Source: Lachnospiraceae bacterium (lineage in GTDB: Bacteria; Bacillota; Clostridia; Lachnospirales; Lachnospiraceae). From it: a DNA stretch of 64,000 bases. The stretch lies in assembly GCA_015056865.1 (NCBI GenBank), contig SVFM01000008.1, positions 1 to 64,000 on the forward strand, written 5' to 3'. The notes beneath the pieces were generated by a model, which saw only the letters and a program-made list of their open reading frames with translations, had not been told where the DNA came from and did no database searches. Numbering within the stretch: position 1 is the stretch's first letter; each line of letters starts with the position of its first letter. The position numbers and the translations under genes were made by a program. This document shows positions 31,970 to 63,312 of this stretch, one piece after another.

Positions 31970-31991
31970 GACAGAATATCCTTCCGGAAGA
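31970..31991 (+). repeat. left arm of Rpn 5'/3' inverted repeat (32.0 kb locus)
   Basis: GACAGAATATCCTTCCGGA and the next bases pair imperfectly with 33066-33085. Within the leader, ATATCCTTC can instead pair with GGAGGATAT, hiding the ribosome binding site of the Rpn gene. Confidence 0.65.
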
Positions 31992-32004: not shown

Positions 32005-32988
32005 ATGAGCAAAAAATTTCAGGAGTTGGATTTGAAGGATGCTTTTCTTTTTTCTGCTGCAGTGCAGGATGAAAAGACATGTGGAATGATATTGGAGGTT
32101 CTTTTGGGGCGGCAGGTACCTAAAGTAACTGTGCGGGCAGAGGCAAGCATGCTATATCATTCAGATTTTAGAAGTGTTCGTTTGGATGTGTATGCAAATG
32201 ATGAGATGCAGGTGGCTTACAACCTGGAAATGCAAAACACGGATAATAACAATTTAGCCAAACGTAGCCGATACCATCAGGCGGAAATGGATTTGACATC
32301 TCTAAAACCAGGAGAAGATTTTCGAGAATTAAAGCCCTGTTATGTGATTTTTATTTGTACATATGACCCTTTTAAAAAAGGAAAATACCGCTACACATTT
32401 GAAAATAGATGTCTGGAAGAAGATTTTCCTTTGGGAGATGAAACAACAAAGGTTTTCTTGAATACGAAAGGTACAAATAAAAATGAGGTTCCTGAGGTAT
32501 TGGTTAATTTTCTACATTATGTAGAAAACAGTACAGATGAATACGTGAGTACCATTGAAGACCATACAATTGAAAAAATACATGAAAATATTGTTCAGCT
32601 AAAGAAAAGCAGATTATGGGAGGGCCGATACATGAAATTTGAGGAAATTCTTCGAGAGGCAGAAGAAAATGGTTTAAAACGAGGTATGATAAAAGGCCTG
32701 GAAGAAGGATATCAACAGGGCATGGAGCAGGGCATGCAGCAGGGCTTAGAACAAGGCATGCAGCAGGGCTTAGAACAAGGCATGCAACAGGGCTTAGAAC
32801 AAGGCATGCAACAGGGCTTAGAACAAGGCATGCAACAGGGCTTAGAGCAGGGCATGCAGCAAGGCCGAGATCTATTAATCAAGCTCATAGATTGCATGGC
32901 AGTAGCAGGAGAAGGAAATCAGATTGCAAAGTTAAGTAATTCGGATTTCTTACAGCATATGTTACAAAAATATAATCTAAAAATCTGA
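32005..32988 (+). CDS. Rpn family recombination-promoting nuclease with repeat tail
   Basis: This 327-residue protein belongs to the Rpn/PDDEXK nuclease family, often labelled putative transposase. Characterised members are DNA endonucleases linked to recombination and phage defence. The PD-(D/E)XK core shows RSVRLDVYAND and YNLEMQNTDNNNLAKRSRYHQAEMD. Next come ELKPCYVIFICTYDPF and the FLNTKGTNKNE segment. Residues about 239-290 are five and a half copies of GMQQGLEQ encoded by a 24-bp DNA repeat, predicted to form a helical tail. AGGAGG precedes the ATG, within a possible hairpin. Confidence 0.9.
   Translation: MSKKFQELDLKDAFLFSAAVQDEKTCGMILEVLLGRQVPKVTVRAEASMLYHSDFRSVRLDVYANDEMQVAYNLEMQNTDNNNLAKRSRYHQAEMDLTSLKPGEDFRELKPCYVIFICTYDPFKKGKYRYTFENRCLEEDFPLGDETTKVFLNTKGTNKNEVPEVLVNFLHYVENSTDEYVSTIEDHTIEKIHENIVQLKKSRLWEGRYMKFEEILREAEENGLKRGMIKGLEEGYQQGMEQGMQQGLEQGMQQGLEQGMQQGLEQGMQQGLEQGMQQGLEQGMQQGRDLLIKLIDCMAVAGEGNQIAKLSNSDFLQHMLQKYNLKI
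32719..32868 (+). repeat. 24-bp minisatellite in the Rpn gene
   Basis: About 5.5 tandem copies of GGCATGCAGCAGGGCTTAGA plus ACAA encode GMQQGLEQ. Units start at 32731, 32755, 32779, 32803 and 32827, with degenerate ends on both sides. The length is a multiple of three, so copy-number changes keep the frame. No spacers are present, so this is not a CRISPR array. Confidence 0.95.
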
Positions 32989-34045: not shown

Positions 34046-34071
34046 GTCGAAGTAACATAAGTGAATATTGC

Positions 34072-34288
34072 GATGTCAGGTGTCCGGCGGATATATATCA
34101 GGGCCGGATGAAAAGGGAAGCAGGTGCAAGTCCTGCACGATCTCGTCGCTGTAAGTAGGGAGTGCTCCTCCATTGATGTCACTGGAATTTGTTCTGGGAA
34201 GGCGGAGGTGCGCAGTGATCTATAAGTCAGAAGACCTGCCTGTCATTCGGTACTGAGTAACCACGAGGCATTGGTTGAGTACAGGCAG
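34072..34288 (+). promoter_or_regulatory. cobalamin riboswitch
   Basis: The leader contains the B12-box features: AAAAGGGAAGCAGGTGCAAG, TCCTGCACGATCTCGTCGCTG and GTCAGAAGACCTGCC. After the aptamer, CTGCCTGT can pair with ACAGGCAG (about 34236-34288) as an expression platform. It should repress the downstream DUF4430 and ECF-S genes when adenosylcobalamin or another corrinoid is abundant, so those genes are likely for corrinoid uptake. Confidence 0.93.
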
Positions 34289-34420
34289 TCTGTTTACGAA
34301 AAGCAGGCGCCAACAACTCTTCATGCCCCTTGCAATGATTGCAGGAGGCATTTCGTGTTTTCTGAGGTTCTATTCACAAAACCACAGTGCCCAAGAAGGG
34401 CAAACACAAGGAGGAAAATC

Positions 34421-34846
34421 ATGACAGAAACAAAGAAACCCATCAACAAGAAAACAATCATCGGTGCAATTGCATTGATAGCCGTTGTTGCAGTGCTGGG
34501 CATTGCTTATGCAGTGTTTGGGCCCAAGACAACGGACGGTGAAAAATCTATTACTATTGAAGTCATCGACAATGAGCAGAGGAGTGTAGTTTATGAAGTA
34601 GATACAGAAGCAGAGTTCCTGGAGCAAGCCTTTGCGGATGCAGAAGGCTTGGAAGTTTCCGGTCCCAAGACAGAGTTTGGCCTGACCATTGAAACAGTCA
34701 ACGGCCTGACTGCTGATTTTAACAAAAGTAGTGCATATTGGTCCATCATGGTCAATGGAGAATATGGGCAGGCAGGTGCTTCTACCCAGCCGGTAACAGA
34801 TGGTGATGAGTTCCAGTTGGTATATTCGGTTTTTGTAGCGGAATAA
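34421..34846 (+). CDS. DUF4430 domain protein, membrane-anchored, probable corrinoid binder
   Basis: This 141-residue protein has a basic N-terminus and one membrane segment (IGAIALIAVVAVLGIAYAVFG). An extracytoplasmic DUF4430 domain follows (SITIEVIDNEQRSVVYEVDTEAEFLEQAF...YWSIMVNGEYGQAGASTQPVTDGDEFQLVYS). DUF4430 is related to the beta domain of vertebrate transcobalamin, which contacts B12. Being directly under a cobalamin riboswitch strongly suggests surface capture of corrinoids for the ECF-S partner. The start at 34421 has AAGGAGG; the track ORF starting at 34271 would run from the riboswitch. Confidence 0.85.
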   Translation: MTETKKPINKKTIIGAIALIAVVAVLGIAYAVFGPKTTDGEKSITIEVIDNEQRSVVYEVDTEAEFLEQAFADAEGLEVSGPKTEFGLTIETVNGLTADFNKSSAYWSIMVNGEYGQAGASTQPVTDGDEFQLVYSVFVAE

Positions 34847-34855
34847 AACATTGTT

Positions 34856-35407
34856 ATGAAGGAAGTAAAGAAAAAAAATATCAAAAGAGGAATAGCTATT
34901 GTAGATATTGCCCTGATAGGAATGATGATTGCTATTGTAGAGGTCAGCAAGAGAGCTATGGATTTCTTGCCCAATATAGAGTTGGTAACCTTTTGGATCA
35001 TTATGTTCACGCTCTTCCTGGGAGGAAAAGCAATCTATGGAGTACTGGGTTTTGTCTTAATAGAGGGGATGATCTTTGGATTTCACATTTGGTGGATCAT
35101 GTATCTTTATCTTTGGCCGGCATTGGTATTGGTTACTTGGCTGTTTCGAAAAAATGAATCCATGTTTTTATGGGCAGTTATTTCCGGTATCTTTGGCTTG
35201 CTCTTTGGAGCTGCCGGATCACTACCTTATTTGTTTATCGGTACTGCCAGCGGTGGTCTGGCCAATGGATTTTATACCGCTTTTAGCTGGTGGATCGCCG
35301 GAATCCCTTGGGATTTGACTCATGGCATTGCTAATTTTGTGGTCATGCTTATTCTATATCAGCCCATACGGTATGTGATGAAGAAAGTTAAATATCAGGT
35401 TTATTAA
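34856..35407 (+). CDS. ECF transporter S component, probable cobalamin or corrinoid
   Basis: This 183-residue membrane protein has about five to six hydrophobic segments and ends with the S-component-like motif GIPWDLTHGIANFVVMLILYQPI. ECF S components deliver vitamins to a shared T/ATPase module. It follows the DUF4430 gene by nine bases in the cobalamin-riboswitch operon, so corrinoid is the likely substrate. It differs from the BtuCD-F route usually found under this riboswitch. No clear ribosome site is seen, so translational coupling is likely. Confidence 0.85.
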   Translation: MKEVKKKNIKRGIAIVDIALIGMMIAIVEVSKRAMDFLPNIELVTFWIIMFTLFLGGKAIYGVLGFVLIEGMIFGFHIWWIMYLYLWPALVLVTWLFRKNESMFLWAVISGIFGLLFGAAGSLPYLFIGTASGGLANGFYTAFSWWIAGIPWDLTHGIANFVVMLILYQPIRYVMKKVKYQVY

Positions 35408-48392: not shown

Positions 48393-48509
48393 TAAAGTTT
48401 TTTATGGGTCAATGATCCAGCAGAAGTGGAAAAGGCTTTGGGCGTTGACATCTGTAAAAGGGTATGGTTGAATAAGGATATAAATAGTTGCAGCAAGGAG
48501 GACACAAGG

Positions 48510-49472
48510 ATGAAGTTGGTTGTGTTGGAAAGAAACAGTGTGGGATTGGATGTGGATATGTCTTGCTTTGAAGCACTGGGGGAGGTAACCTATTATCCCA
48601 ATACTTTTACTGTGGAACAAGTGGCGGAGCGTGCGAAGGATGCGGACATTATTATTGCAAACAAAGCGCCTATCAATGAGGCTTCCCTGAAAAATATACC
48701 CAATGTAAAACTGGTTTGTGAGTTGGCCACGGGATTTGATAACTGTGATCTGAATTATTGTAAAAGCAGAGGTATCAAGGTGACCAATGTAAAGGACTAT
48801 TCTACCTCTATGGTGGCACAGCTTACCATTACTTTGGCCCTTGCTCTGGTACAAAAGCTGGCACACTATGATCAGTATGTGAAATCCGGAGCCTACAGCG
48901 CCCAGGATCGCTTTTCCTATTTTGATGTTCCCTTCTGGGAGTTGGAGGGGAAGACTTGGGGTATTGTGGGTATGGGCAATATCGGTCGCAGAGTAGCGGG
49001 AATTGTATCCGCTTTTGGAGCCAAAGTGATCTTTCACTCTATCACCGGCAGAAGCAGTGTTACGGAGTATGAGCAGGTGGATAAGGAGACATTGCTTCGG
49101 GAGAGTGATTTTTTGTCCTTGCATTGTCCCTTAAGCGATCTGTCCAGAAACTTTATAGATGCAGCAGCTTTGAAACAAATGAAAAAGACGGCTGTGCTCA
49201 TCAATGTGGCCAGAGGTCCGGTGGTAAATAATACAGATTTGTATCACGCACTGGTGGATGGAGAAATTATGGCAGCAGGCCTGGATGTGTTAGAGAAAGA
49301 ACCCTTGCGTCCCGAAAATCCCTTAAGCAGACTAAAAGACAGCAATCAGATCATTATTACACCGCATCTGGGTTGGGGAAGTGTAGAGGCTCGGACCAGA
49401 TGCGTCAATGAGGTATACAAAAATATTCAGAGTTTTCTGAGCGGAGTGGACAGGAATGTAGTCAATCCATAA
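48510..49472 (+). CDS. D-isomer-specific 2-hydroxyacid dehydrogenase
   Basis: This 320-residue NAD-dependent dehydrogenase has an N-terminal catalytic domain and a central Rossmann domain with WGIVGMGNIGRRVAGIVSAFG. The family active site is visible: Arg in INVARGPVVNN, Glu in DVLEKEPL and His in ITPHLGWGS. Family members reduce keto acids such as hydroxypyruvate or glycerate-type compounds; the substrate is not certain. The ATG at 48510 has AAGGAGG upstream. A decayed partial duplicate lies at 51.4-51.7 kb. Confidence 0.9.
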   Translation: MKLVVLERNSVGLDVDMSCFEALGEVTYYPNTFTVEQVAERAKDADIIIANKAPINEASLKNIPNVKLVCELATGFDNCDLNYCKSRGIKVTNVKDYSTSMVAQLTITLALALVQKLAHYDQYVKSGAYSAQDRFSYFDVPFWELEGKTWGIVGMGNIGRRVAGIVSAFGAKVIFHSITGRSSVTEYEQVDKETLLRESDFLSLHCPLSDLSRNFIDAAALKQMKKTAVLINVARGPVVNNTDLYHALVDGEIMAAGLDVLEKEPLRPENPLSRLKDSNQIIITPHLGWGSVEARTRCVNEVYKNIQSFLSGVDRNVVNP

Positions 49473-49524
49473 ACAATAAAAGGAACCTTTTTACGAAAAG
49501 TAAATATAATAATACTGTTAATAA

Positions 49525-49709
49525 ATCATCGAGAGGTGGGTCTGGGGTTCGGGGGCAAGGGGGCAGAGAAAGGCCCTTGAAAAACGTCAGCACTTGGATT
49601 TTTCAAGCTTTTGCGCAGGGAAATCCTTAGTACCGTTACGTTTTTCACGGAGCGCAAGCGTGCCTAAGCTACCCCCTTGCCCCGAACCCCAGACCACCTC
49701 TCAATGATT
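49525..49709. repeat. palindromic element E3 (before sodC-like gene)
   Basis: Arms 49531-49566 and 49669-49702 pair with two single-base bulges; AATCAT/ATGATT extends them. The core has GGCCCTTGAAAAACG and ACGTTTTTCACGG, a helix GGATTTTTC/GGGAAATCC and the GNRA hairpin GCGCAAGC. A TATAAT (49505-49510) upstream places it in a possible 5' leader. It shares its core, not its arms, with E1 and E2. Confidence 0.9.
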
Positions 49710-49732
49710 CACTATTAAAAGGCGGTATTATT

Positions 49733-50206
49733 ATGTTAGAGCATTTTTACAAGCCTCCCCATGCTGTGGCAACACTCAAGGGAAGCAGAGAATATCCAAA
49801 TATAAATGGGACTGTGGGTTTTTATCAGACCGGGCAGGGTGTGCTGGTGACGGCTGAGGTCACAGGTTTGCCGGCAGCCTCGGACAGATGCGCCAGTCCT
49901 ATTTTTGCATTTCATATCCATGAGGGAGGGCGTTGCACCGGCATTGAGACGGATCCCTTTGCTGATGTAGGCTCACATTATAATCCGGAAGGCTGTCAGC
50001 ATCCTTATCATGCGGGGGACCTTCCACCTTTATTTGGCAACAATGGTTATGCCTTTTTGGCGTTGGTGACAGATCGATTTACAGTCAGTGAAATCCTTGG
50101 AAAGACGGTTATTATTCACAGCCAGCCGGATGATTTTCACACCCAACCGGCAGGAGGGGCCGGTGCTAAGATCGCCTGTGGAGAGATTCGCAGCCGGTGG
50201 ATGTAA
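49733..50206 (+). CDS. sodC: Cu/Zn superoxide dismutase-like protein
   Basis: This 157-residue protein matches the Cu/Zn SOD family, which dismutates superoxide. The metal ligands are present: FHIH, the bridging histidine in SHYNP, HPYHAGDLP with Asp, and IIHSQPDDF. A cysteine pair is in GRCTG and IACGEI. There is no signal peptide, so the protein is probably cytoplasmic, unusual for SodC. AAGGCGG precedes the ATG. Element E3 lies 23 bases upstream. A decayed fragment of a second copy is at 51.7 kb. Confidence 0.88.
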   Translation: MLEHFYKPPHAVATLKGSREYPNINGTVGFYQTGQGVLVTAEVTGLPAASDRCASPIFAFHIHEGGRCTGIETDPFADVGSHYNPEGCQHPYHAGDLPPLFGNNGYAFLALVTDRFTVSEILGKTVIIHSQPDDFHTQPAGGAGAKIACGEIRSRWM

Positions 50207-50219
50207 TTATTTTTTATTG

Positions 50220-50248
50220 TTGATTTATCGTGTGTTTTGTATTATAAT
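50220..50248 (+). promoter_or_regulatory. promoter of Rpn gene at 50.3 kb
   Basis: TTGATT, a 17-base spacer and TATAAT give a near-consensus promoter. The predicted start seven bases later is the first base of the inverted repeat at 50255. Confidence 0.75.
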
Positions 50249-50254
50249 TTCATT

Positions 50255-50268
50255 ATAGAATTCCTCTG
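50255..50268 (+). repeat. left arm of Rpn 5'/3' inverted repeat (50.3 kb)
   Basis: ATAGAATTCCTCTG is perfectly complementary to the repeat at 51239-51252. TTCCTCTG can also pair locally with CGGATGAA in the leader, with one mismatch. Confidence 0.8.
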
Positions 50269-50283
50269 CGGAACGGATGAACT

Positions 50284-51138
50284 ATGAGATACAAAAAATC
50301 ATTAAAAGAACTTACCATCAAGGATAATTTCCTGTTTGGGGCGGTAATGAGTGACGAGGAGAACTGCCGCTGTCTTCTGGAATTGATTCTGGCCACATCC
50401 ATTTCACGGGTAAAAGTGAATAAAGAAAAAAGCATCGTATATCATCCGGGATATAAAGGGATACGGCTGGATGTTTATGCGAGAGATGAGAACAACACCC
50501 GTTATAACGTGGAGATGCAGACCTTGCATAAGCCGGCCCTGGGAAAAAGGGCCCGCTATTACCACAGCCAGATTGATATGGAGCTTTTGCAGGCCGGGGC
50601 AGATTATTCTGAACTGCCGGATACGTATGTGATCTTTATTTGTGACTTTGATCCTTTCGGTGCAGAAAAGTACGTCTACAGTTTTGAGAACAGTTGTCGG
50701 GAGGCGAAGGACGTAAAGCTACGGGAGGGAAGCAAGAGTATCTTTCTAAGCACCTGTGGAACCAATCCCCAAGAGGTATTCCGGCCTATGGTAAAGTTTT
50801 TAAACTATGTGGGTGCGAACCTGAAAAGCAGCACAGAAGATTTTGAAGGTCCCTTTGTGGCCAAGCTGCAAAGAAGTGTGCAGACTGTGAAGGAAAGCAG
50901 AGAACTGGAGGAGCAATACATGCTGTTTGAAGAAATGCTTAGAGATGAAAGAGCAGAAGGAAAGGCGGAAGGAAAGGCGGAAATTCTAATCGACATCTTA
51001 CAGGAACATGGCCCGGTTTCTGCAAGTCTGCAGGAAAGAGTTTTTGCCCAGACAGATCCGGAGATCCTCAGAAGTTGGATTAAAGTAGCAATACATGCAC
51101 AGTCTGTGGAACAATTTGAAAAAGATATCATGTCTTAA
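50284..51138 (+). CDS. Rpn family recombination-promoting nuclease (copy 1)
   Basis: This 284-residue Rpn/PDDEXK-family protein is closely related to the copy at 58.1 kb and more distantly to the one at 32.0 kb. The core has GIRLDVYARDENNTRYNVEMQTLHKP with the candidate Asp and Glu-x-Gln, then GKRARYYHSQIDMELL and DTYVIFICDFDPFG. The C-terminal helical region includes a charged repeat (RAEGKAEGKAE). Rpn proteins are DNA endonucleases associated with recombination and, in E. coli, with phage defence. The gene and its untranslated regions are duplicated together. Confidence 0.9.
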   Translation: MRYKKSLKELTIKDNFLFGAVMSDEENCRCLLELILATSISRVKVNKEKSIVYHPGYKGIRLDVYARDENNTRYNVEMQTLHKPALGKRARYYHSQIDMELLQAGADYSELPDTYVIFICDFDPFGAEKYVYSFENSCREAKDVKLREGSKSIFLSTCGTNPQEVFRPMVKFLNYVGANLKSSTEDFEGPFVAKLQRSVQTVKESRELEEQYMLFEEMLRDERAEGKAEGKAEILIDILQEHGPVSASLQERVFAQTDPEILRSWIKVAIHAQSVEQFEKDIMS

Positions 51139-51238
51139 TTATATGTAAAGATTCTAGATGTTTCCTGCAGGGCGATAAGACCTTGCGGGACATCATCTTC
51201 TTATTCATGCCTGTTCAGGCAATCAATTATCAAAAGAG

Positions 51239-51252
51239 CAGAGGAATTCTAT
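51239..51252 (+). repeat. right arm of Rpn 5'/3' inverted repeat (50.3 kb)
   Basis: CAGAGGAATTCTAT is the exact reverse complement of 50255-50268. It follows a conserved 3' untranslated region with a GATG...CATC hairpin (from 51158) and the palindrome GCCTGTTCAGGC. Confidence 0.8.
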
Positions 51253-51330
51253 TGTTGTATCTCATAGAGTTAAAGAGAATAAAAACATATATGCATGATT
51301 TGTATTTGTAATAGAATATAACTTAAATAA

Positions 51331-51369
51331 CCACGGAAAAAAGTAGTGATATTATAGAATCATCCGTGG
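51331..51369 (+). terminator. terminator of Rpn copy 1 transcript
   Basis: CCACGG pairs with CCGTGG across 27 bases of loop, followed by ATTTGCTTT. A corresponding hairpin ends the copy 2 unit. Confidence 0.5.
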
Positions 51370-51401
51370 ATTTGCTTTGGTTAGCTAAAAGCATACACGA
51401 T

Positions 51402-51680
51402 ACGACGGTTGCCAGAATTGTCTCCGCTTTTGGCGTAAAAGTGATCTTCCATTCTGTCACTGGCAAGAGCAGTGTACAGAGTATGAGCAGGTAGATAAGG
51501 AAACCTTGTTGCGAGAGAGCGATTTCTTGCCCCTGTATTGTTCCTTAAGCAGGCTAAAAGACAGCAATCAGATCATCATTACCCTTCATCTGGGCTGGGG
51601 CAGCGTGGAGGTCCGGACCAGATGCGTCAATAAGGTATACAAAAATATTCAAAGTTTCTTAAATGGAGTGCACCGGTAAT
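51402..51680 (+). pseudogene. decayed fragment of 2-hydroxyacid dehydrogenase gene
   Basis: This segment matches the C-terminal half of the dehydrogenase at 48.5-49.5 kb. It has a frameshift (AGTGTACAG versus AGTGTTACGG). An internal deletion joins the two sides of a short direct repeat, CCCTTAAGC, that occurs twice in the intact gene. No start codon or complete domain remains. It is evidence of an old tandem duplication. Confidence 0.85.
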
Positions 51681-51684
51681 AAAG

Positions 51685-51743
51685 CGGATTCCTTTGCGGG
51701 TGCCAGGATCGCCTGTGGAGAAATCCGTAGCTGCCGGATGTAA
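51685..51743 (+). pseudogene. decayed fragment of sodC-like gene
   Basis: CGGATTCCTTTGC matches an internal sodC segment and is joined to the gene's end (GATCGCCTGTGGAGAAAT...GGATGTAA). Most of the gene is deleted. It keeps the order dehydrogenase-then-sodC of the intact locus. Confidence 0.75.
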
Positions 51744-51814
51744 TATTTGCATAAGGTTGACAAGCCTGTCCAATCATAGTACAGTATAAGAATAGAACAT
51801 AAGGATGGTGTACT

Positions 51815-58033: not shown

Positions 58034-58047
58034 ATAGAATTCCTCTG
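58034..58047 (+). repeat. left arm of Rpn 5'/3' inverted repeat (copy 2)
   Basis: ATAGAATTCCTCTG can pair perfectly with 59043-59056. TTCCTCTG can alternatively pair with CGGAGGAA, hiding the Shine-Dalgarno sequence, with a five-base loop TGGAA. Confidence 0.85.
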
Positions 58048-58062
58048 TGGAACGGAGGAACT

Positions 58063-59042: not shown

Positions 59043-59056
59043 CAGAGGAATTCTAT
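59043..59056 (+). repeat. right arm of Rpn 5'/3' inverted repeat (copy 2)
   Basis: CAGAGGAATTCTAT matches the copy 1 arm exactly. Upstream in the 3' region a GATG...CATC stem (from 58966) and GCCTGTTCAGGC are conserved between the two loci. Confidence 0.85.
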
Positions 59057-59167: not shown

Positions 59168-59206
59168 AACCATGGTGGAAGCTACAATAAATAGCTCCGT
59201 GGTTTT
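59168..59206 (+). terminator. terminator of Rpn copy 2 transcript
   Basis: AACCATGG and inner GGAAGCTA pair with TAGCTCC and GTGGTT. It is positioned like the copy 1 terminator, before the ceramidase-like array. Confidence 0.55.
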
Positions 59207-59249
59207 GGCTTAATATCATAATTTGCAAGATGAGAAAAGAGGTAAGGCT

Positions 59250-60593
59250 ATGGTAAAGTGTGGATTTTATGAAGCCGACATTACAGGCCCTTTGGGATGT
59301 AACATGATTGGATACAACAAAAAAAGGGTGTCTGACGGTGTGCTGGAAAAGCTGTATGCAAAAGCATTTGCAGTGGATGTGGATGGCGTTTGCGGTATTG
59401 TGATCTCCATCGATGCGGAGTTTACACCCCAGAGTGTACATGACGTGGCGGTAGAAAGAATTACTGCGGCCACAGGGATTCCCTCAGATCGGATTTTGAT
59501 CAATGCAACCCATACGCATACAGGAGGCCCCTTGGGTGTTGGTGGCGGTGTATTCTACACTCCGGATCCGGAGTACAATGATATTTTGTGTCGGATCGTG
59601 GGAGACAGTGGTATTTTGGCTTATCAGCGTATGCAGCCCGCAGGAGCAAAAGTGGCAAGAAAAGATGTGTACGGCATATCCTTTATCCGTAATTACAAGA
59701 TGAAGGATGGCCGAATCTGGATGAATCCGGGCTGGCAGAATCCGGATGTAGTAGAGCCCTTCGGAGAGTTGGATCCGGAGCTTGCAGTCATGTTTATCTG
59801 CGATGAGCAGGATCGTCCCATGGGTGCGCTGGTAAACTATGCCTTGCATCATGACTGTGTTTCCAACAGGTACCATTGTACCAAATACTGTAGTGATTAT
59901 TCCGGTATCATGTCTAAGGAATTGAAAAAGACCTATGGACAGGATTTTGTTACGGTAATGATCAATGGCTGCTGCGGCAATATCAATCATTTTGATATCA
60001 GCAGAACCTTTGATGACTTTTTCGCTGATCCGCCCTACATCCGTATTGGACAGCGTCTGGCAGACGAGGTGCGTAGCCTTTATGAGGAGGCGAAACCTCT
60101 GGCAATCACTGCGGTGGATGGTAAAAAGGAGATTGTAGAGATTGAGAGAAGACAGGTGCCTGATGAGGAAGTGCAGATTTACAAAGATTTGATTAAAAAG
60201 TATCCTACCACAGAAGGTTTGCAGCACAGCTTCCTCGATCCCAATGGGGATGGATGGAGACGTAAACGAGCAGAGGCCATATTGAATTTTGTGCAAAGAC
60301 CCGATAAGTTACCCGTGGTAGCACAGGCTCTGCGGATTGGCGATTGCATGATGTATGCCGTAAGTGGCGAGGTATATTCAGAATTTGGACTTTATATGAA
60401 GAGGAACTCTCCTTGTGACTTCAATATGGTAGCTGAGATGGCTAACGGAGGCGAGTCCTGTTACATACCCACTCCTCAAGCTTTTGGAACAGAACTTTAT
60501 GAAGCCCAGATTCCCACCTCCAAACTGATCCCTCAGGGCGGATACATTATGGCAGACCATGCGTTAGAAATGGCAAGGGAACTGGTGAAATAA
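59250..60593 (+). CDS. neutral-ceramidase-like metallo-amidase, tandem copy 1
   Basis: This 447-residue protein resembles the neutral/alkaline ceramidase N-terminal domain family, zinc amidases acting on N-acyl substrates. It has DITGPLGCNMIGY, NATHTHTGGPLG (candidate zinc His near residue 92), VNYALHHDC (His near 200) and CCGNINHF. SGEVYSEFG (candidate zinc Glu) and MANGGESCYIPTPQAF (candidate Tyr) complete the set. It lacks a signal peptide, so it is probably cytoplasmic. The ATG at 59250 follows AGAGGTAAGG; the track start at 59223 is not conserved in the sister copies. The substrate is unknown. Confidence 0.8.
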   Translation: MVKCGFYEADITGPLGCNMIGYNKKRVSDGVLEKLYAKAFAVDVDGVCGIVISIDAEFTPQSVHDVAVERITAATGIPSDRILINATHTHTGGPLGVGGGVFYTPDPEYNDILCRIVGDSGILAYQRMQPAGAKVARKDVYGISFIRNYKMKDGRIWMNPGWQNPDVVEPFGELDPELAVMFICDEQDRPMGALVNYALHHDCVSNRYHCTKYCSDYSGIMSKELKKTYGQDFVTVMINGCCGNINHFDISRTFDDFFADPPYIRIGQRLADEVRSLYEEAKPLAITAVDGKKEIVEIERRQVPDEEVQIYKDLIKKYPTTEGLQHSFLDPNGDGWRRKRAEAILNFVQRPDKLPVVAQALRIGDCMMYAVSGEVYSEFGLYMKRNSPCDFNMVAEMANGGESCYIPTPQAFGTELYEAQIPTSKLIPQGGYIMADHALEMARELVK

Positions 60594-60608
60594 GAAAGGG
60601 CAGACATC

Positions 60609-61952
60609 ATGGTAAAATGTGGATTTTATGAAGCAGATATTACGCCCCCTTTGGGATGTAATATGAGTGGCTATTTCAAGAGAAGAATTTCGACCGGGGT
60701 GCTGGAAAAACTCTATGCAAAAGCATTTGCAGTAGAAGCAGATGGGATTTGCGACATTGTGATCTCCATTGATTCGGAATTGGTACCCAAATCCATACAT
60801 GATGTAGCAGTGGAAAGAATTGCCCAGGCTACAGGGATTCCTTCCGACAGGGTACTGATCAATGCAACCCATTCCCATACAGGTGGAGCATTGGGTGATA
60901 AAGAAGACATGGTTTATACTCCGGATCCCATTTATAATAATGTTTTGGGTAGAATCGTGGGCGATTGCGGCATTCTGGCCTATCAGCGTCTGCAGCCGGC
61001 AGGGATTAAAGTGGCTAAGAAGGACGTGCACGGGATTTCTTTTATCCGCAATTATGTGATGAATAACGGCCAGGTGTTTATGAATCCCGGCTGGCAGAAT
61101 CCGGAGGTGAAGGAGCCTTTCGGAGAGTTGGATCCGGAGCTTGCAGTCATGTTTATCTGCGATGAGCAGGATCGTCCCATGGGAGCACTGGTAAATTACG
61201 CGCTGCATCATGACTGTGTTTCCAACTGGGAACATTGCACCAAGTATTGCAGTGACTATTCCGGCATCATGTCCAAGGAATTGAAAAAGACCTACGGACA
61301 GGATTTCGTCACAGTAATGGTCAATGGCTGTTGCGGTAACATCAATCACTTTGATATCAGCAGAACCTTTGATGACTTTTTTGCAGATCCGCCTTACATC
61401 CGCATCGGGCGGCGTCTGGCAGATGAAGTGCGTAGTCTTTATGAGGAGGCAAAGCCTCTGGCAATTACTGCAGTGGATGGAAAGAAAGAGATTGTAGAGA
61501 TCGAGAGAAGGCAGGTTCCCGAGGAAGAAGTTCAGATTTACAAAGATTTGATGATAAAGTATCCCACTACAGAAGGTCTGCAGTACAGTTTCCTTGATCC
61601 CAACGGGGACGGCTGGAGGCGCAAGCGTGCGGAATGGATATTGGAATTCGTGGAGGAGCCGGAGAAGTTGCCCATGGTGGTGCAAGCTTTGAAGATCGGT
61701 GATTGTATGATATATGCAGTGAGCGGCGAGGTTTATTCGGAATTTGGTCTTTATATGAAGAAGAATTCGCCTTGCGCCTTTAATATGGTTGCAGAGCTGG
61801 CCAACGGTGGTGATCCCTGTTACGTACCTACACCGCAGGCGTTTGGAACAGATCTTTACGAAGCCCAGATTCCTTCTTCCAAACTGATCCCTCAGGGCGG
61901 ATATATTATGGCAGACCATGCGTTAGAAATGGCAAGGGAACTGGTGAAATAA
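60609..61952 (+). CDS. neutral-ceramidase-like metallo-amidase, tandem copy 2
   Basis: The 447-residue protein is a paralogue of copy 1 and starts 15 bases after it. All candidate metal ligands are kept: THSHTGGALG, LHHDC, SGEVYSEFG and CYVPTPQAF. Several DNA blocks, such as the one around codons 170-190 and the last 65 bases, are nearly identical to copy 1, which suggests recent gene conversion. The four genes run in one direction with short gaps and are likely co-transcribed. Confidence 0.8.
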   Translation: MVKCGFYEADITPPLGCNMSGYFKRRISTGVLEKLYAKAFAVEADGICDIVISIDSELVPKSIHDVAVERIAQATGIPSDRVLINATHSHTGGALGDKEDMVYTPDPIYNNVLGRIVGDCGILAYQRLQPAGIKVAKKDVHGISFIRNYVMNNGQVFMNPGWQNPEVKEPFGELDPELAVMFICDEQDRPMGALVNYALHHDCVSNWEHCTKYCSDYSGIMSKELKKTYGQDFVTVMVNGCCGNINHFDISRTFDDFFADPPYIRIGRRLADEVRSLYEEAKPLAITAVDGKKEIVEIERRQVPEEEVQIYKDLMIKYPTTEGLQYSFLDPNGDGWRRKRAEWILEFVEEPEKLPMVVQALKIGDCMIYAVSGEVYSEFGLYMKKNSPCAFNMVAELANGGDPCYVPTPQAFGTDLYEAQIPSSKLIPQGGYIMADHALEMARELVK

Positions 61953-61968
61953 AAAAGAGGAATACAGT

Positions 61969-63312
61969 ATGGTAAAATGTGGATTTTATGAAGCAGATAT
62001 TACTCCCCCTTTGGGATGTAATATGATTGGTTATTTCAAGAGAAGAATTTCAGACGGCGTGTTGGAAAAACTTTATGCAAAAGCATTTGCTGTGGATGTA
62101 GACGGAGTTTGTGGCATTGTGATTTCTATTGACGCTGAACAGGTGCCTCAGAGTGTGCATGATGTAGCTGTGGAAAGAATTACTGCGGCAACAGGAATTC
62201 CCTCCGACCGGATTTTGATCAATCCAACTCACACCCATACCGGAGGCCCTTTGGGTGATCACGGAAATGTGTATTATACGCCGGACCCCTATTACAATGA
62301 TATTTTGTGCAGGATCGTGGGAGACTGTGGCATTCTGGCTTATCAGCGTCTGCAACCTGCAGATGCCAAGGTGGCCAAGAAAGATGTGTACGGTATTTCC
62401 TTTATCCGCAATTATGTCATGAAAGACGGCAGAGTATTTACGAATCCTGGCTGGCAGAACTCGGAGATCAAGGAGCCCTTCGGGGAGTTGGATCCAGAGT
62501 TGGCGGTAATGTTTATTTGTGATGAGCAGGATCGTCCCATGGGTGCGCTGGTGAATTATGCGCTGCATCATGATTGTGTTTCCGACAGTAAGCACTGCAC
62601 CAAGTACTGTAGCGACTATTCAGGTATCATGTCCAAGGAGTTGAAAAAGACTTACGGACAGGATTTTGTTACAATAATGGTCAATGGATGTTGCGGTAAT
62701 ATCAACCATTTTGATGTGAGCAAAAGTTTTGCAGACTTTTTTGCAGATCCCCCCTATATTCGCATCGGAAAACGGTTGGCGGATGAGGTGCGTAGCCTTT
62801 ATGATGAGGCAAAGCCTCTGGCAATTTCCGTGGTGGATGGCAAAAAGGATATCATAGAAATAGAAAGAAGACAGGTTTCTCCGGAGGAAGTGCAGGAATA
62901 TAAAGACTTAATTAAGAAATATCCTTCTATGGAGGGGCTGTATTACAGTGTTCATGATCCCCACGGAGAGGGCTGGAAACGTAAGCGTGCAGATAATGTA
63001 TTAAAGTTTGTGGAGAAGCCGGATAAGCTGCCTATGGCAGTGCAGGCGTTGCGAATCGGGGATTGTATGCTGTATGCGGTAAGCGGCCAGTTGTATTCCG
63101 AGTTCGGCCTTCATATGAAGAAGAATTCTCCTTCTGCCTTTAATATGGTTGCAATGATGGCCAACGGCGGTGACCCCAATTACATACCTACACTTCAGGC
63201 ATTTGAAATGGACCTTTATGAGGTACAGGTTCCTACCTCCAGCCTGATTCCTCAAGCTGGATATATGATAGCAGATCATGCGTTGGAGTTGGCTAAGGAA
63301 CTGGTAAAATAA
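61969..63312 (+). CDS. neutral-ceramidase-like protein, tandem copy 3 with altered ligand
   Basis: The 447-residue paralogue follows copy 2 by 16 bases. It keeps THTHTGGPLG, LHHDC and YIPTLQAF. The SGE segment of the other copies is SGQLYSEFG, so the candidate zinc-binding glutamate is a glutamine. If that position is catalytic, this copy could have reduced activity or act as a partner. Codon choice and length match its neighbours, so it is not obviously a pseudogene. Confidence 0.78.
   Translation: MVKCGFYEADITPPLGCNMIGYFKRRISDGVLEKLYAKAFAVDVDGVCGIVISIDAEQVPQSVHDVAVERITAATGIPSDRILINPTHTHTGGPLGDHGNVYYTPDPYYNDILCRIVGDCGILAYQRLQPADAKVAKKDVYGISFIRNYVMKDGRVFTNPGWQNSEIKEPFGELDPELAVMFICDEQDRPMGALVNYALHHDCVSDSKHCTKYCSDYSGIMSKELKKTYGQDFVTIMVNGCCGNINHFDVSKSFADFFADPPYIRIGKRLADEVRSLYDEAKPLAISVVDGKKDIIEIERRQVSPEEVQEYKDLIKKYPSMEGLYYSVHDPHGEGWKRKRADNVLKFVEKPDKLPMAVQALRIGDCMLYAVSGQLYSEFGLHMKKNSPSAFNMVAMMANGGDPNYIPTLQAFEMDLYEVQVPTSSLIPQAGYMIADHALELAKELVK

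Follow-up and report, generated by a model that had tools for sequence, protein, structure and literature searches.

Rpn genes are found in 34 bacterial phyla, often in many copies, and have been described as intragenic toxin-antitoxin systems with phage-defence activity, in which a C-terminal product (RpnS) translated from an internal start blocks the full-length product (RpnL) of the same gene (Zhong et al., 2023; PMC10327210). The differential expression of RpnL and RpnS was called unexplained in that study, which also reported the rpn coding regions to be without identifiable inverted terminal repeats. Here we analyze a 64,000-nucleotide stretch of DNA from Lachnospiraceae bacterium (positions 1 to 64,000 of contig SVFM01000008.1, assembly GCA_015056865.1; hereafter the window) containing an rpn gene, copy w50, whose predicted mRNA carries complementary arms at its 5' end and in its 3' untranslated region (3'UTR). 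Sequence comparison makes a strong case for conserved 5'/3' pairing of these arms. We consider it probable that they form a regulatory long-range RNA duplex, in which the 3'UTR displaces a leader lock on the predicted toxin RpnL.

The E. coli genes rpnA-E resemble w50 in protein family and in an internal RpnS start with a conserved Shine-Dalgarno (SD) sequence (PMC10327210). In the sections of Zhong et al. available to us no UTR or SD control is reported, whereas about half of the rpn genes sampled here show covarying 5'/3' pairing. Bacterial 5'/3' UTR pairing is itself known, from icaR (PMC3868564) and from aapA and hok (PMC6733600), and the rpn version would be a new variant; we found no report of 5'/3' pairing of an rpn mRNA in the open literature. 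In hok/Sok, aapA1 and aapA3/IsoA, a nascent hairpin hides the SD, as is predicted here, and the extreme 5' end pairs with the 3' region. Those type I toxins are small hydrophobic peptides and their 3' strand hides the SD or the start, whereas here the product is a 284-aa nuclease-family protein, the predicted antitoxin is a protein, and the 3' strand would release the SD (PMC6733600). The icaR mRNA of Staphylococcus aureus is likewise a Firmicute transcript whose 3'UTR pairs with its own leader and controls initiation, but it places a 3'UTR anti-SD on the SD, with repression and RNase III, whereas here an SD-like 3' strand would lie on the anti-SD of the leader (PMC3868564). The timP pseudoknot is similar in that its toxin mRNA adopts mutually exclusive structures, of which the one competent for translation requires a tertiary pairing in competition with sequestration of the ribosome-binding site; in the portion of that work available to us the pairing is SL1-SL3 and no 5'/3' pairing is described, whereas the competitor here is about 1 kb away in the 3'UTR (PMC11228461).

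The w50 unit comprises the following features, in which ORF denotes an open reading frame:

50220-50248, + strand: promoter, with -35 TTGATT (50220-50225), a 17-nt spacer and -10 TATAAT (50243-50248)
50255-50269, + strand: 5' arm A, ATAGAATTCCTCTGC, the predicted first bases of the mRNA, holding the anti-SD TTCCTC
50274-50281, + strand: SD strand of the leader hairpin, CGGATGAA in w50 (mutated), CGGAGGAA in other copies
50282-50294, + strand: segment B, CTATGAGATACAA, the start-codon region, complementary to B'
50284-51138, + strand: RpnL, an Rpn (PD-(D/E)XK) nuclease ORF of 284 aa, from profile matches
50907-50922, + strand: predicted RpnS start, internal SD GGAGGAG-N6-ATG (residue 213)
51209-51220, + strand: small hairpin in the 3'UTR, GCCTGTTCAGGC, ahead of the 3' arm
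51238-51252, + strand: 3' arm A', GCAGAGGAATTCTAT, complementary to A and a further copy of the SD strand
51255-51267, + strand: segment B', TTGTATCTCATAG, anti-start codon, retained in four local copies
51331-51369, + strand: terminator-like CCACGGA...TCCGTGG, read from sequence, degenerate here and clearer at 59168-59205

Profile matches leave no doubt that the product predicted from 50284-51138 belongs to the Rpn / PD-(D/E)XK_2 nuclease family (PF12784, E 1.6e-16, 61.2 bits with a cut-off of 27.4; TIGR01784, 108 bits with a cut-off of 52.1). An earlier sequence-only reading of this locus had described a perfect 14-bp complementarity between the two ends. The match is indeed perfect, but it extends over 15 nt, and arms A and A' are 100% complementary and 968 nt apart. 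That reading had also placed the left arm at the first transcribed base, in agreement with the promoter (TTGATT-17-TATAAT): the -10 box ends 6 nt ahead of the arm, which puts the predicted +1 at 50255, the first base of the arm. The right arm does lie in the 3'UTR, the ORF ending at 51138. As for the pairing with the leader strand near the ribosome site that had been proposed, such a pairing exists but is imperfect in w50, where TTCCTCTG and CGGATGAA pair at 7/8 positions with one mismatch; it is perfect in copy w58 of the same window, where CGGAGGAA pairs at 8/8. Competition between the 3' arm and the ribosome-site strand is supported as well, and shows more cleanly in relatives than in w50. 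A second complementarity, between B and B', spans the start codon and had been missed.

Arm pairing was examined in 195 distinct Rpn genes, taken together with their flanks and nearly all of Lachnospiraceae origin, by taking the best ungapped 5'/3' duplex under symmetric mismatch scoring, with dinucleotide-shuffled 3' regions as the null. Duplex scores of at least 26 were obtained for 94/195 genes versus 4 with shuffled 3' regions, and 5'/3' arm pairing in about half of the sampled rpn genes is not chance. A direct-repeat control was not used, its top values coming from a few loci with long direct repeats. Of 86 genes of the main class, 70 have a good -10 box 2-13 nt upstream of the arm (background rate 9%); the box lies exactly 6 nt upstream in 44 of these 70. 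The distance from arm edge to start codon is 27-43 nt in 82/86 main-class loci. A 3'UTR hairpin, GCCnnTTCnGGC / GCC(3-7)GGC, stands 12-45 nt ahead of the 3' arm in 33/71 loci compared with a background of 7%. Outside Lachnospiraceae, no arm pairing stood out among the 16 evaluable of 30 sampled Bacillota Rpn loci (of the other 14, one was the copy already in the window and 13 yielded no ORF that the simple picker could use).

Covariation of the arms across relatives, which the sequence-only reading had suggested checking across paralogues, is strong. In 28 diverse arm pairs, both partners are altered in at least one sequence at 12 of the 15 base pairs while 96.7% of cells remain paired, and the covariation score is 0.558 versus 0.192 for 3'-letter shuffles and at most 0.138 for slid registers. 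Across the 86 main-class loci, own arms form 1256 Watson-Crick pairs versus 1051 +/- 12 for permuted arms (z 17). Since arm complementarity alone could also serve DNA ends, a strand test was applied, in which a transition mismatch appears as G.U or A.C depending on which arm changed and the two are expected equally without RNA pairing. Bridged mismatches were 23 G.U versus 6 A.C (p 0.002), a preference which argues that the arms pair at the RNA level; a terminal-mismatch version of the test was not used, its ratio being due to base composition. A repeat acting at the DNA level, bound by Rpn or by a regulator for looping or autoregulation, could be read into the strong conservation of GAATTCCTC across genera, but it is extremely improbable given that letters change freely while complementarity is kept, and given the same strand asymmetry.

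Mobility of the gene has to be weighed as well, as the family name (putative transposase), the multiple copies and the inverted repeats around the gene all suggest terminal inverted repeats of an element moved by Rpn. In several diverged copy pairs, moreover, blastn homology stops 3-12 nt past the 3' arm. The left homology, however, takes in the promoter, 18-59 nt outside the arm, and the local copies have about 100 nt in common beyond the right arm, including ATATATGCAT and terminator-like sequence, so that the homology past both arms reported by the sequence-only reading is borne out in same-genome copies. Target-site duplications exactly at the arms, which that reading had named beforehand as speaking against it, were found at none of the 86 loci: exact 3-9-nt repeats bordering the arms do not exceed their frequency in permutations. 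For 2-nt repeats the count is 12 versus a permutation mean of 6.2 (max 13). Arm matches with up to one mismatch number eight in the 2.53-Mb genome and fall into four pairs, all around Rpn copies; solo arms resembling miniature inverted-repeat transposable elements are absent from it at that threshold. The anti-SD or anti-start of each arm matches the gene's own start, and Zhong et al. report no evidence of autonomous transposition (PMC10327210). Transposon ends were rejected on flank permutation and homology boundaries, and we regard them as highly unlikely. The +1 position, the lack of target-site duplications, the homology, the covariation and the G.U bias all agree with the RNA function that had been favored over transposon ends. 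Inverted repeats around a so-called transposase gene would then be explained without transposition.

What the arms might do is suggested by the leader. Within the 5' arm, UUCCUC is the complement of the gene's own SD, and in predicted folds of leaders taken alone the 5' arm pairs with every one of the five SD bases in 69/86 cases; for the w58 leader the folding energy is -12.3 kcal/mol (z -4.1). The 3' arm GCAGAGGAAUUCUAU consists of a second SD-like strand and a stretch that complements the unpaired first bases of the leader, and the 15-pair arm duplex (-19.3 kcal/mol in a short model) is predicted to outcompete the leader hairpin. A second class of Rpn genes has unrelated arms (GAAAACCATATCC, TACGGGAATCC, ACAGGCGGAATTT and others). 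At about 10 of its loci the leader UUUGUGCCAU pairs with the start AUGGCACAAA, and the 3' arm carries AUGGCAC, a second copy of the start strand adjoining the toehold complement. As read from these predicted pairings, the rule common to both classes is that the 3'UTR duplicates whichever start-site strand the leader hides.

We propose that the first ~25 nt of the growing transcript fold into a hairpin in which the ribosome site of full-length RpnL is covered by the anti-SD 5' arm. In the 3'UTR the hidden strand would be present a second time, joined to a sequence complementary to the unpaired 5' tail AUAGAA, which is the 5' part of arm A and the presumed toehold. Once transcribed, the 3' arm would invade the hairpin via this tail and capture the 5' arm (15 bp versus 8-9 bp with wobbles), which would free the SD, or the start codon in the second class. 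Translation of RpnL would be held back until the mRNA is complete, and by then the internal RpnS start would be present and unlocked. Partition-function folding of whole first-class mRNAs gave a pattern consistent with this proposal, with an SD accessibility of 0.09 without the 3' arm, 0.12 with the arm reversed and 0.41 with it; accessibility was higher with the true than with the reversed arm in 18/20 mRNAs. In the second class, accessibility of the start codon rose from 0.06 to 0.22 and was up in 11/11. That the duplex opens rather than closes the start site is thus a modelled direction, and its action in cis and antitoxin-first purpose are what we infer. We offer more tentatively, as somewhat short of an even chance, the full picture of a natural cis-encoded toehold switch, in which an mRNA's own 3'UTR triggers the toxin start, the antitoxin comes first and toxin is made only from finished transcripts, with at least two versions unrelated in sequence, SD-locking and start-codon-locking, across Lachnospiraceae. 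Such a switch would be a concrete cis-acting answer to toxin/antitoxin balance in a large group of gut bacteria and, if the opening direction is true, would mean that the 3'UTR activates the start site of its own mRNA, opposite to what is known from icaR and hok/aapA.

The main rival of opening is that the 3' region is a lock and not a key, as in hok/aapA or icaR: the duplex together with B' would silence the full-length mRNA or feed it to RNase III, and 3' trimming or cleavage would activate or destroy it. If B' dominates, 3' trimming would open the full-length mRNA as in hok/aapA. We judge this distinctly less probable than opening, though a serious contender. In four local copies B:B' spans the start codon and two compensatory changes accompany it, and pairings of at least 8 nt are enriched in the main class (17/86 versus 2/86 shuffled; 11 versus about 4 under another scoring). 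RNase III might act on the perfect 15-bp duplex, as in icaR (PMC3868564), and a nascent SD hairpin, a 5'-3' interaction and 3' truncation together make up the aapA3 scheme (PMC6733600). B' is nevertheless absent from most loci, and was rejected as a general feature, being real in local copies and clearly not universal across the 86. Moreover, the 3' arm pairs with the anti-SD strand and not with the SD as in icaR, and the folding predictions in both classes are for opening. The A and B pairings cross, which implies either a pseudoknot or mutual exclusion.

Several observations weigh against opening. In the local copies and at some other loci the start codon is paired by B', which would close and not open the site, and in the second class SD accessibility dips slightly, from 0.85 to 0.68. 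The enrichment of terminators downstream of the 3' arm is only mild (29/91, compared with 14 in shuffles). The energy models are crude for 1-kb loops and ignore ribosomes, and the rows used for covariation were picked for having arms, with statistics that ignore relatedness. In w50 itself the SD is predicted to be free at 0.22 in the full mRNA, 0.18 when truncated and 0.34 with the arm reversed, and no opening is predicted because its SD is mutated (GGATGA, not GGAGGA); its leader folds at only -4.8 kcal/mol. The poorest example is thus w50, which retains both arms plus the longest B:B' and could be weakened or tuned differently; w58 is the canonical copy.

Opening in cis also has to be set against a 3' arm carried by a separate or 3'UTR-derived small RNA that acts in trans on the leaders of all copies. 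Several copies per genome have the same arms, which makes trans pairing possible, and the conserved hairpin ahead of the 3' arm would suit such an RNA. Promoter-like sites before the 3' arm, however, did not outnumber those of shuffled sequence (same strand, 7 of 103 versus 8; 45 for leaders), on which basis an independent small-RNA promoter in the 3'UTR was rejected. Diverged copies retain locus-specific matches, which favors cis, and we consider the small RNA unlikely.

By its sequence, w50 has the internal SD and start for RpnS that characterize the Rpn intragenic toxin-antitoxin. All motif-bearing loci (91/91) use GAG as the codon that forms the internal SD, against an overall GAG share of 42%; judged by this codon usage, the internal RpnS SD is under strong selection.

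The four arm pairs of the genome belong to w50, w58 (58034/59043), a copy on contig C19 and a partial copy on contig C34. The arms of w58 are located as follows:

58034-58047, + strand: 5' arm of w58, with the canonical SD CGGAGGAA at 58053-58060 and the ORF from 58063
59043-59056, + strand: 3' arm of w58

The C34 copy (G000:C34:62582-63238, L005) is diverged, its two segments having identities of 66% and 49%, and lacks residues 83-182 through an in-frame loss. It retains one perfect and one 1-mismatch arm, the leader, the RpnS part and B/B' with two compensatory changes, and is possibly an antitoxin-only derivative. A third Rpn gene of the window (32005-32988) has a weaker arm, matched with a bulge in its own 3'UTR:

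31970-31978, + strand: 5' arm GACAGAATA of the third Rpn gene, continuing TCCTTCCGGAAG, score 26

This gene encodes C-terminal (GMQQGLEQ)n repeats, which recall the variable repeats of four residues described by Zhong et al.

At 51390-51745 lies a decayed second copy of the 3' portions of two genes upstream of w50 (48426-50206), those for 2-hydroxyacid dehydrogenase and Cu/Zn SOD, placing the Rpn unit within a partial tandem duplication. An Rfam 15 scan of the window returned only a cobalamin riboswitch and a tRNA, and nothing credible at the Rpn locus; the riboswitch (RF00174, 119 bits) lies at 34061-34257, upstream of ORFs at 34271-35407. At 59223-63312, three tandem and closely similar ORFs of 447-456 aa, by eye like neutral ceramidases, form a local gene expansion.
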